Assembly (NCBI GenBank): GCA_011372855.1
Contig: DSAE01000048.1
Coordinates: forward strand, 1-42,979
Direction of reading: 5' to 3'
DNA length: 42,979 bases
Source of the DNA: Desulfobacteraceae bacterium
Lineage (GTDB): Bacteria > Desulfobacterota > Desulfobulbia > Desulfobulbales > Desulfobulbaceae
A program made the translations under genes and the position numbers. Under the pieces are notes generated by a model. It saw only the letters and a list, made by a program, of their open reading frames with translations, did not search any database and had not been told where the DNA came from. Within the stretch, counting starts at the first letter, position 1. Every line of letters begins with the position of its first letter. Positions 1,516-8,623 of the stretch are shown here, one piece after another.

Positions 1516-2931
1516 CTACCGGGATTCCCCGGAGAGGTCGGTGCCCCGGCGCAGAGTGATGAGGCTGATTTCACCGGGACAGTTAAAGCGGAGAGGGACC
1601 CCTGATGCCCCGACTCCGCGGCTTGTATACCCCACCATGCCGCGGTGCCGCCATCTGCCTGATGCGGTAAAACGAGGGGCGCGGCTGTTGGTAAAAATCG
1701 GGCCCCGGCCGGGCAGGCAGATCTGACCGCCGTGGGTGTGGCCGCAGAGGTAGAGCTGGACCTGAAAATCGGCCGCCTCCCTGTATGCTTCCGGTGAATG
1801 GGCCAGCAGTATTTTGAATTCATCGGCCGGGACGTTGCGGAGAGCCTGGCGCACGTCGTGCACTTTATAATAATGCGGATCATCGACCCCGGCAATCCAG
1901 ATCTGGGCACCGTTTTGGTGAATGTCCCAGGCTTCGTTAATGAGCATGATCAGGCCTGTTTCCTCAAAGTCCGGAGACATCTCTATACAGTCATGGTTGC
2001 CCAGAACGCCGAGAATACCGTGGCGGGATCCGACGTGGGGCAGAAGGCATCGAAGATTCCGAAGGCAGGGAGCCATGGGACCGTAGGTTTCCATGCGGAT
2101 ATCGCCGCCGATAAGGCACAGGTCGACATCGAGACTGCGAATATGGCTGACGATCCTGGCGGTCAGGCCCGGCTGGCCGTCCAGGTGAAGATCGGTGAGC
2201 AGCAGAATGCGAAAGCCGTCGAATTGCTCCGGCAGATCGGGGAAACGGAAAGTTTCCTCGACCACCTGAATATCCAGGGCGTTCCGGATGCCTTTTTTAC
2301 GGAGACCGGCCACTCGGAAAATCCAGTAATACAGTATCCGGTAGGAGAGAAAACTGGTCAGGTTGAACAACACCTGCCAGCGGGCGAGGGGAACATGGCA
2401 GGAGCGCCATGCACGGAAACGGACAGTTGACCGGACCAGCCGGGGGCAATTTTTCGGCGAGGGGCGATAGGTGATAAAGCTCCATATGGCTGCCCCCAGC
2501 AAAGCGAACGGAATGAAACAGACGAGAACGGCAAGCAGCTGCCAGAGGGCCAGATCCAGGTAGGCAGCGAAGAAACACGTGGGAAAAAACGCCTCGAAAA
2601 ACTGGTCGAGGACCACGACGTTGCTGCCGCTGCCCAAGCTGAAGCGGCGCTTGATAAAGCTTGAGAGGAGGTCGCCGGCCATGGCGAGAAGCGCCCCGAT
2701 GCCCGCCGCCCACCATGGAACATTGAGGAGCGGGAATACCGCCATACCGCCCAGGATGCTTGTCAGGATGCCCCTGACGGTTTTGTGCGGCCCGAATACC
2801 GGACGGCCGTCAAACCAGACCTTGCCCCCGTCCAGGGGCCGATCGAAACGGTCTTTCCAGATCAGACTGGCAAGCGGGGGAAGCAGGTTGACCCAGACGA
2901 CGAACGCCGTCAGTTGAAGAACAATATGCAC
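1516..2931 (-). CDS. Fusion protein: CarS-like (CDP-archaeol synthase family) membrane domain plus calcineurin-like metallophosphoesterase (YkuE/LpxG-like)
   Basis: N-terminal half has CarS-type motifs (RPLDGGKVWFDGRPVFGPHKTVRGI, GDLLSSFIKRR, LDQ). C-terminal half has metallophosphoesterase motifs (LLTDLHLD, GGDI, LGNHD, LAHSPE, GHTHGGQI). Single uninterrupted ORF. Confidence 0.8.
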   Translation of the reverse strand: MHIVLQLTAFVVWVNLLPPLASLIWKDRFDRPLDGGKVWFDGRPVFGPHKTVRGILTSILGGMAVFPLLNVPWWAAGIGALLAMAGDLLSSFIKRRFSLGSGSNVVVLDQFFEAFFPTCFFAAYLDLALWQLLAVLVCFIPFALLGAAIWSFITYRPSPKNCPRLVRSTVRFRAWRSCHVPLARWQVLFNLTSFLSYRILYYWIFRVAGLRKKGIRNALDIQVVEETFRFPDLPEQFDGFRILLLTDLHLDGQPGLTARIVSHIRSLDVDLCLIGGDIRMETYGPMAPCLRNLRCLLPHVGSRHGILGVLGNHDCIEMSPDFEETGLIMLINEAWDIHQNGAQIWIAGVDDPHYYKVHDVRQALRNVPADEFKILLAHSPEAYREAADFQVQLYLCGHTHGGQICLPGRGPIFTNSRAPRFTASGRWRHRGMVGYTSRGVGASGVPLRFNCPGEISLITLRRGTDLSGESR

Positions 2932-6718: not shown

Positions 6719-7675
6719 TCATTGCGCCAGCCCCCGGGTCCCTTCCAGCAGGGCCTCATCGAGGTTGGCGCCCTGCAGGTCGGCCCCCGTCAGATCAGCC
6801 TGGATCAGGTTGGCGCCCTTGAGATTGGCGTTTCTGAGATTGCAGTTGCGCAGGTCAGCGCCGGGCAGATTGGCATAGGACAGGTCGGCGCCGGAAAGAT
6901 TGGCGCCCTGCAGGTCGGCCCGTCTCAGGTTCGCCATGCTGAGGTCGGCGCCGGCAAGGTTGGCGCCCTGGAGCCTGGCCCCGACCAAGTCGGCCTTTTT
7001 GAGGTTTGTGCCGGCGAGATTGCAGCCGGGGCAGTCCCTGGCCATCCATTTGACGGTCGATTTCAGCTCGCCTTCGGAGGCGCCCGCCGGCTGCTTTTCC
7101 TCGGTGAGCACGGGTCCGTCCCCGGGGGAGAGGGTCGGAGCGCGGTCCTCTTCGGCGGGCCGGCTTGAGGCGGTCTGCGGCTCCACCGGTGAACGCCGGA
7201 TGCTTTTCCGCTCTTTTTTCGGCAGGGCGACGTATTGCTTCTTGTGGTCGCCGGGGAAGAAGTCGGCCTTGAAGTCGATGACCCCGGCCGAGTTGGCCAG
7301 ATAGTACCGCTGATCGTCGGCATACATCGCAAAGCAGCGCAGATCGCCGCGCCAGCCCCATTTGAGCCGCATACAGAGTTCTCCGGTATCGGCCACGTCC
7401 CACCTTCCGTTATCCCTGTTGCCGGCGATATCGTGCCCGAACAGGGTGCCGGAAGGGTCGTAGTAGTAATAGGTTTCTTCAGTGAAGGATCGGAGAAAGA
7501 GGGTGTTGGATTCGACAAGCTCGAGCACCTCGGTTGGTTCCATCAGCCTGGCATTCCTTTTCCGTTCGATCTGCTTGACGGTGAGCGGACCGCAGGACGT
7601 CAGGAGCAGAAGGGTCAAGAGAACCGCGCCGGCGCTGCAATAGATGGCCCGACGTTCAAATCTACGATGATTCAT
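6719..7675 (-). CDS. Pentapeptide-repeat lipoprotein
   Basis: Signal with lipobox (LLLLLTSC), then C-terminal A(D/N)LXX repeats (GANLAGADLSMANLRRADLQGANLSGADLSYANL...). Confidence 0.85.
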   Translation of the reverse strand: MNHRRFERRAIYCSAGAVLLTLLLLTSCGPLTVKQIERKRNARLMEPTEVLELVESNTLFLRSFTEETYYYYDPSGTLFGHDIAGNRDNGRWDVADTGELCMRLKWGWRGDLRCFAMYADDQRYYLANSAGVIDFKADFFPGDHKKQYVALPKKERKSIRRSPVEPQTASSRPAEEDRAPTLSPGDGPVLTEEKQPAGASEGELKSTVKWMARDCPGCNLAGTNLKKADLVGARLQGANLAGADLSMANLRRADLQGANLSGADLSYANLPGADLRNCNLRNANLKGANLIQADLTGADLQGANLDEALLEGTRGLAQ

Positions 7676-7801: not shown

Positions 7802-8623
7802 TTAATCCAGTCCCTCAAAAAGTTTCATTTCCCCGATATTGCGCAGGGAAAGCCAGAGGTCATTTTCACTGTGCGGTTCCAGGGTGATGAGCGGCGATAT
7901 CCGTTGACGGCGGAGAAAATCAAAAAATTCCTTGAAGTTGAATATTCCCAGGCCGATGGCGATATGCTCGTCCCGCCGGCCTCTGTTGTCATGGAGGTGG
8001 ACCTGACGGAGACGGGGAAGCAGCGCATCCGTCCAGGTCTGCCAGGAAGATCCGGCATAGGCCGTCAGATGACCGACGTCGAGACAGAAACCGGGTCCGT
8101 GAGACTGCAGCCGTTCGAACAGCAGTTGATGGACGCGGGGTTCGGTTTCATAGGTGTTTTCAAACATGACCGGCGTGTTGTTCCGCCGGGCGATTTCCAG
8201 GAGCCCGGTCCAGGTTTCCTCCGAAATACGCAGCCATTCCTCGAACTTGTACGAGTGTTTGTTGTCATCATAGCCGAGATGACAGACAATCGAGCGGGGC
8301 TGGAAAATTGCGCTCAACGCAAAGGCTCGGTGCAATTTTTCCCGTGTCACCGCCAGTATTTTCGGATCCAGGCCGCCCGGCGCCAGGTCAAAGAACGGGG
8401 CATGGAGCGTGCACTGGAGCCCCGCGGCCCGCAGCGAATCGGCAGTCGCCTGAAATTCATTCTCTCCGGTGGTCCACAGACAGTCGCCTTCCAGGCTGAT
8501 CTCCGGGCGGAACCTGTTGTTGATGAACAGGTCCAGCAACCCCTGGCGCAACAGTCCGAAAGGGGCGTTGATGAAGCATCGGTTGATGATGTGGGCATAT
8601 GTTTCAGCGGGGTTGTCGTTCAT
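7802..8623 (-). CDS. AP-endonuclease-2/xylose-isomerase-like TIM barrel protein; possibly a CbiR-type cobamide remodeling phosphodiesterase
   Basis: TIM-barrel family motifs: CTLHAPFFDL, ENTYE, GFCLDVGHLTAY, VHLHDNRGRRDEHIAIGLGIFNF. The CbiR assignment is by recollection of the family and is not certain. Confidence 0.7.
   Translation of the reverse strand: MNDNPAETYAHIINRCFINAPFGLLRQGLLDLFINNRFRPEISLEGDCLWTTGENEFQATADSLRAAGLQCTLHAPFFDLAPGGLDPKILAVTREKLHRAFALSAIFQPRSIVCHLGYDDNKHSYKFEEWLRISEETWTGLLEIARRNNTPVMFENTYETEPRVHQLLFERLQSHGPGFCLDVGHLTAYAGSSWQTWTDALLPRLRQVHLHDNRGRRDEHIAIGLGIFNFKEFFDFLRRQRISPLITLEPHSENDLWLSLRNIGEMKLFEGLD

Follow-up and report, generated by a model that had tools for sequence, protein, structure and literature searches.

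A CarS-Type CTP-Transferase Domain Fused to a Metallophosphoesterase in Desulfobulbales: A Candidate Bifunctional Enzyme of a Bacterial CDP-Lipid Pathway

Introduction

The CDP-archaeol synthase CarS of Aeropyrum pernix (ApCarS; PDB 5GUF, PF01864) is a membrane CTP transferase of five helices, the CTP site of which is formed by two cytoplasmic loops (PMC9385802). CdsA (PF01148) belongs to the same CTP-transferase superfamily and carries out the same chemistry. A CTP-activating enzyme can also be joined to another enzyme of a single CDP-alcohol route, as in the Thermococcales protein IPCT/DIPPS (NF041135), a known fusion in which, by its NCBIfam description, inositol-phosphate activation is joined to the CDP-alcohol phosphotransferase (CAPT) itself and not to a phosphoesterase. 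Among the calcineurin-like phosphoesterases, YaeI and LpxG, the UDP-2,3-diacylglucosamine pyrophosphatase of Chlamydia, possess the motifs DxH, GNHD, and GHxH, and LpxG is a membrane-associated enzyme that cleaves a nucleotide-lipid pyrophosphate (PMC4807358).

The protein described here combines both kinds of domain in one polypeptide. It shares with ApCarS the five-helix architecture and the loop residues D, D, G, KT, GD, SFxKRR, and LDQ; in contrast to ApCarS, it falls below the CDP-archaeol synthase cut-off, carries an attached phosphoesterase, and occurs in an order without geranylgeranylglyceryl phosphate (GGGP) synthase, and its lipid substrate is therefore likely to be a different one. 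CdsA is encoded by a separate gene (L091) of the same genome; the fusion itself falls within the CarS branch. Unlike LpxG and YaeI, the fusion carries a CTP transferase, scores far below the cut-offs of both models, and is found in a genome that contains LpxI. Both domains are of known kinds, and the novelty lies in their fusion; a literature search, mostly of papers accessible without subscription, returned no paper pairing a CDP-archaeol synthase with a metallophosphoesterase. Bacterial genes of the CarS type are annotated as "CDP-archaeol synthase" although no archaeol route is evident in their hosts, and the phosphoesterase beside them carries no functional assignment.

Gene Structure and Catalytic Domains

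The window, which is the whole stretch of DNA that was analysed (42,979 nucleotides; Desulfobacteraceae bacterium, a sulfate-reducer-type organism; GCA_011372855.1, contig DSAE01000048.1), contains an unbroken ORF of 471 codons on the minus strand, with a GTG start at 2931 and a stop at 1516. The ribosome-binding sequence GAGGAA lies immediately 5' of the GTG, and the open frame reaches just five codons 5' beyond it. The original prediction had placed one ORF at this position, which is present, and had given no strand; the plus-strand frame is broken by stops, and the gene is that of the minus strand.

1516..2931, minus strand: fusion gene, CarS-metallophosphoesterase (471 aa, GTG start; Pfam, 28 full-length homologues)
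2467..2931, minus strand: CarS-type membrane CTP-transferase domain (residues 1-155, five predicted helices; PF01864, PRK04032, 5GUF)
2770..2832, minus strand: first cytoplasmic loop DGGKVWFDGRPVFGPHKTVRG (residues 34-54; invariant D34, D41, G47, K50, T51, G54)
2593..2679, minus strand: second cytoplasmic loop GDLLSSFIKRR...LDQFFE (invariant G86, D87, S91, F92, K94, R95, R96, D109, Q110)

The five motifs that had been quoted for this protein (DGGKVWFDGRPVFGPHKTVRG, GDLLSSFIKRR, TDLHLD, GNHD, and GHTHGGQI) are each found in its 471 residues, and a domain search recovered both expected families: PF01864 scored 41.3 bits against a cut-off of 22, and PF00149 scored 43 bits against one of 21.5. In comparison with the 85%-identical copy in L002, dN/dS was 0.13 for the CarS half, 0.10 for the linker, and 0.10 for the phosphoesterase half; both halves are under purifying selection.

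The assignment of the N-terminus to the CarS type was borne out for the first ~155 residues by Pfam, NCBIfam, PDB sequence comparison, and fold. The PF01864 match is best over residues 81-149, ApCarS 5GUF is the sole PDB sequence match of the fusion protein, and the five N-terminal membrane helices of the AlphaFold model, in which confidence (pLDDT) is mostly >85 over residues 1-155, superpose on 5GUF with a TMt of 0.76 (152 columns, rmsd 2.4). When 33 bacterial CarS domains, fused as well as stand-alone, were aligned (A2), 18 columns were invariant (N15, P18, D34, D41, G47, K50, T51, G54, G86, D87, S91, F92, K94, R95, R96, D109, Q110, and P117). The main loop residues among them have counterparts in ApCarS: the first loop, DGGKVWFDGRPVFGPHKTVRG, aligns with the archaeal protein, and the second, which contains GDLLSSFIKRR (residues 86-96), aligns with its GDMAGSFVKRR...LDQ. 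Sequence and model together establish an intact CarS-type domain with putative CTP-transferase activity.

Membrane domains act as anchors in other proteins, and on this ground alone, with no tool result in its favour, the CarS half could be regarded as a dead anchor carrying a phosphoesterase with an unrelated role. This explanation is rejected as quite improbable, as the catalytic residues are retained: all 18 residues invariant in bacterial CarS domains, stand-alone ones included, are kept in the fusions, the dN/dS of this half is 0.13, and the phosphoesterase is also linked with separate CarS genes elsewhere.

The family name and the fold would fit the archaeal route proper, in which the CarS half would make CDP-archaeol for isoprenoid ether lipids, and an isoprenoid glycerol lipid had been named as the substrate of the archaeal enzyme in the original prediction. 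Against this stand the score with the CDP-archaeol synthase model PRK04032, 59 bits against an equivalog cut-off of 148, and the distribution of GGGP synthase (PF01884), which was found in none of the 146 genomes of the order, the window's own included, while seven control genomes gave matches. CDP-archaeol is therefore not an expected product, an archaeol substrate is unlikely, and a true archaeal route is scarcely credible. Separate genes of the window's genome encode a true PgsA (L082, 149 bits), PssA (133 bits), and a PIP-synthase-like protein, and housekeeping CDP-diacylglycerol (CDP-DAG) is ascribed to CdsA.

The C-terminal half contains the following features.

1537..2271, minus strand: calcineurin-like metallophosphoesterase domain (residues 221-465; PF00149, Mre11-type fold)
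2179..2196, minus strand: metal motif TDLHLD (D-x-H), residues 246-251 (D and H invariant in A5)
1990..2001, minus strand: metal motif GNHD, residues 311-314 (invariant in A5)
1720..1743, minus strand: metal motif GHTHGGQI, residues 397-404 (invariant in A5)

A5 is the phosphoesterase alignment of 24 sequences. The Pfam match covers residues 240-401, and the motifs DxH, GD, GNHD, H, and GHxH are all kept, which identifies an intact metallophosphoesterase domain of predicted activity. For this half, the fold search with the AlphaFold model returned Mre11-type nucleases, a match that was taken as one of superfamily fold and not of function; a profile search of the PDB with the phosphoesterase alignment gave no match.

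The half had been predicted to be of the YkuE/LpxG type. Its calcineurin-like character was upheld, and the nearest models are indeed those of YaeI (PRK11340, 79.3 bits, equivalog cut-off 188) and LpxG (NF033458, 60.9 bits, equivalog cut-off 350); an LpxG function was not upheld. Taken at face value, the weak LpxG match of 61 bits could mark this half as the lipid A enzyme of the organism, an LpxG-like UDP-2,3-diacylglucosamine hydrolase. Such a role was rejected as unnecessary: the genome encodes LpxI (176 bits), which leaves lipid A with no need of the fusion, the match lies far from the 350-bit cut-off, and a CTP-transferase half has no role in the hydrolysis of UDP-2,3-diacylglucosamine. 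The probability of a lipid A function is accordingly very small. Three other PF00149 proteins occur in the genome; of the two that were read, one resembles the nuclease SbcD and the other YfcE.

The two halves are joined by one further element.

2272..2466, minus strand: basic linker (residues 156-184) and interface helix (residues 186-207); low model confidence in the linker

The AlphaFold model of the whole fusion has a mean pLDDT of 87 and a pTM of 0.64, and residues 156-190 are mostly <50 in pLDDT; the relative placement of the two domains is therefore not set by the model. The helix at residues 186-207 is too polar, by hydropathy, for a sixth transmembrane segment in most homologues, and the same region is also present in stand-alone phosphoesterases. 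Of five stand-alone phosphoesterases that were compared, four lack a hydrophobic stretch at the N-terminus, which makes a location in the cytosol likely for the enzyme. The topology of ApCarS (PMC9385802) leads to the same side of the membrane, and the C-terminal domain of the fusion is thus predicted to be cytoplasmic, on the face that bears the CarS loops.

Distribution and Gene Neighbourhood

A Rosetta-stone search for the architecture, in a scan of one-genome-per-species contigs, found 28 other full-length fusions with 42-85% identity. Nearly all hosts are Desulfobulbales or their relatives, the remainder including two Desulfobacterium and two genomes labelled Thioalkalivibrio. A strong CarS match is present in 55 of the 146 genomes of the window's order, nearly always in a frame of fusion size; where strong matches of other size were inspected, they proved to be cut by a contig end or a frameshift, and weak matches in frames of about 264-303 aa were taken as CdsA. 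In the phosphoesterase tree the fusions cluster, joined only by a contig-truncated copy (L027) and a long-branch row (L066). The simplest reading of this tree would be a single fusion event with later spread, including to the Ectothiorhodospiraceae-labelled genomes and to G306.

The source genome is a draft of 304 contigs, and it could be asked whether two adjacent genes were joined by misassembly or frameshift. The probability of this is negligible, and misassembly was rejected, because full-length fusions occur in 28 further cases from independent assemblies and group together on the tree; a frameshift could not have yielded the fusion, since the separate genes are convergent elsewhere.

Three fusions, G306:C16:8638-10017 (L128), L025, and L026, lie in genomes labelled or placed as Gammaproteobacteria and group beside those of Desulfobulbales; lateral transfer is possible for them. 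Desulfogranum japonicum contains a stand-alone phosphoesterase of the same family (L042) besides its own fusion (L023).

The same two families occur as separate proteins, roughly 26-47% identical to the fusion halves, in gammaproteobacteria and on alphaproteobacterial plasmids, where, unlike the fusion, they are encoded by two convergent genes. CarS is the immediate neighbour in 29 of 51 stand-alone phosphoesterase loci, in every case tail-to-tail and read from the other strand; the remaining neighbours of the pair vary between lineages. The pair is also found on two alphaproteobacterial plasmids, from Methylobacterium nodulans and Bosea, annotated as "metallophosphoesterase" and "CDP-archaeol synthase".

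L031-L081 (29 loci), L140 5938-7437, and L141 6022-7430, opposite strands: convergent pair loci, the gene ends sometimes touching or overlapping

In the class to which Marinobacter zhanjiangensis belongs, CarS was detected in 38 of 229 genomes and the phosphoesterase in 33, and both proteins occur together in 29 against 5.5 expected (Fisher 1e-24, a test that, like the other Fisher tests on co-occurrence used here, ignores shared ancestry); 22 of these 29 co-occurrences are adjacent and convergent and one is fused. Shared ancestry alone is an unlikely cause, because the pair turns up in scattered alpha-, beta-, and gammaproteobacteria as well as in one MAG of the Acidobacteria. The functional link proposed from the fusion is thereby shown independently, by the neighbourhood and the co-occurrence of the separate proteins. 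Convergent genes are not co-transcribed, so a stable complex is not implied in gammaproteobacteria. Kept convergent pairs are an unusual arrangement.

A further partner is a CAPT whose motif, slightly variable, is DFLDGWxARRW...WQGGLLDAVADK; at 10 fusion loci it is encoded directly upstream and in the same direction. In the survey of the 146 genomes it adjoins the fusion on the same strand in 15, directly upstream in 10 and directly downstream in five (G026, G057, G074, G090, and G097), and in the rest of the genomes with this CAPT it lies elsewhere. As the gene lies on either side depending on lineage, the linkage would be functional and not merely positional. With a profile built from fusion-bearing loci, the CAPT subfamily was detected in 30 of the 146 genomes, 23 of which also have the fusion against 11.3 expected (Fisher 1.3e-6); it is absent from 32 of the 55 fusion genomes. 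In the window's genome an orthologue (L084, up to 59% identical) lies on contig C35, unlinked to the fusion.

The linked CAPT does not reach the equivalog cut-offs of PgsA (TIGR00560, 63 of 109 bits) or of cardiolipin synthase ClsA (NF053678, 58 of 240 bits). Its acceptor-side motif, RD...GKxATxxQ, has no counterpart of the second Lys in RE...GKxK[ST]xxQ, the motif of PgsA, and is nearer to that of a second gammaproteobacterial CAPT (A4), RD...(S/G)KxNTxxQ. Because this Lys is missing, the version of the pathway in which a PGP-like phosphorylated product would meet a PGP phosphatase is weakened. A4 is enriched in genomes with CarS (29 of 38 vs 85 of 191, p 3e-4); it is common and unlinked, and the enrichment carries little weight.

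Proposed Catalytic Route

Based on these comparisons, the fusion is proposed, with somewhat better than even confidence, to be a conserved bifunctional inner-membrane enzyme that performs sequential steps of a CDP-lipid pathway. The loops of the CarS half, at the cytoplasmic face, would transfer CMP from CTP to a lipid phosphate to form a CDP-lipid and pyrophosphate. A dedicated CAPT, here L084 on contig C35, may then spend the CDP-lipid to attach a headgroup. The phosphoesterase half could hydrolyse a phosphoester of an intermediate of the route, either the product or a lipid precursor, and the linker and interface helix may hold it on the face of the CarS loops, so that successive steps would be tethered. 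The lipid in question is probably built on acyl- or alkyl-glycerol, not on archaeol.

Making and cleaving a CDP- or NDP-lipid bond had been suggested in the original prediction. In such a scheme the phosphoesterase half would hydrolyse the CDP-lipid, or a related nucleotide-lipid, made by the CarS half and return lipid phosphate and CMP, which could set the pool size or edit wrong CDP-lipids. The best models of the phosphoesterase, YaeI and LpxG, fit this scheme, as do the prediction of both sites on one membrane face and the co-occurrence of the two proteins even without a linked CAPT; the CarS-phosphoesterase linkage is compatible with it as well. However, the scores are far below the equivalog cut-offs of both models, and a CAPT linked to the fusion implies consumption of the CDP-lipid, which suggests headgroup transfer instead of make-and-cleave. 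Opposing activities are therefore considered a minority possibility, perhaps one worth a quarter of the weight, and sequential steps the likelier reading.

Taken further, and more tentatively than the bifunctional assignment itself, the fusion, the CAPT, and the convergent pair may represent a phospholipid route of bacteria that has gone unrecognised and runs alongside CdsA/PgsA/PssA. In it, a second class of lipid (e.g., bulky, branched, or ether-linked) would be activated by a CarS-type enzyme, and the phosphoesterase tethered to that enzyme would complete a later or earlier step. Seen together, fusion, gene pair, and CAPT neighbour merge two unexplained annotations into a single pathway hypothesis that can be tested. 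If it is true, there would be a second CDP-lipid branch in the membranes of Proteobacteria and Desulfobulbales, and many genes could be re-annotated by one rule.

Other Neighbouring Genes

Other genes beside the fusion are lineage-specific and suggest no pathway. A radical SAM protein of 430 aa is encoded directly upstream of the fusion, and in its direction, in L013 (1330-2622), where 6 bp separate the two genes, and in L015-L020, L022, and L024, which form a Desulfurivibrio-like branch without an adjacent CAPT; no assigned family was found for this protein. In L004 (2414-5283) the genes ahead of the CAPT-fusion pair encode an S49 peptidase and a membrane protein that resembles Gate-domain (nucleoside-recognition) proteins, an arrangement shared within one group by L005, L006, L008, L009, L011, and L012. 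In the window the neighbours are dnaE and a PAS kinase, likewise lineage-specific and without a pathway clue. Farther along the minus strand of the window, 6719-7675 encodes a lipoprotein-like protein that has a pentapeptide repeat at its C-terminus (an Alr5209/HetL-like match under the cut-off), and the product of 7802-8623 has a sub-threshold match (72 of 105 bits) to the cobamide remodelling phosphodiesterase CbiR.
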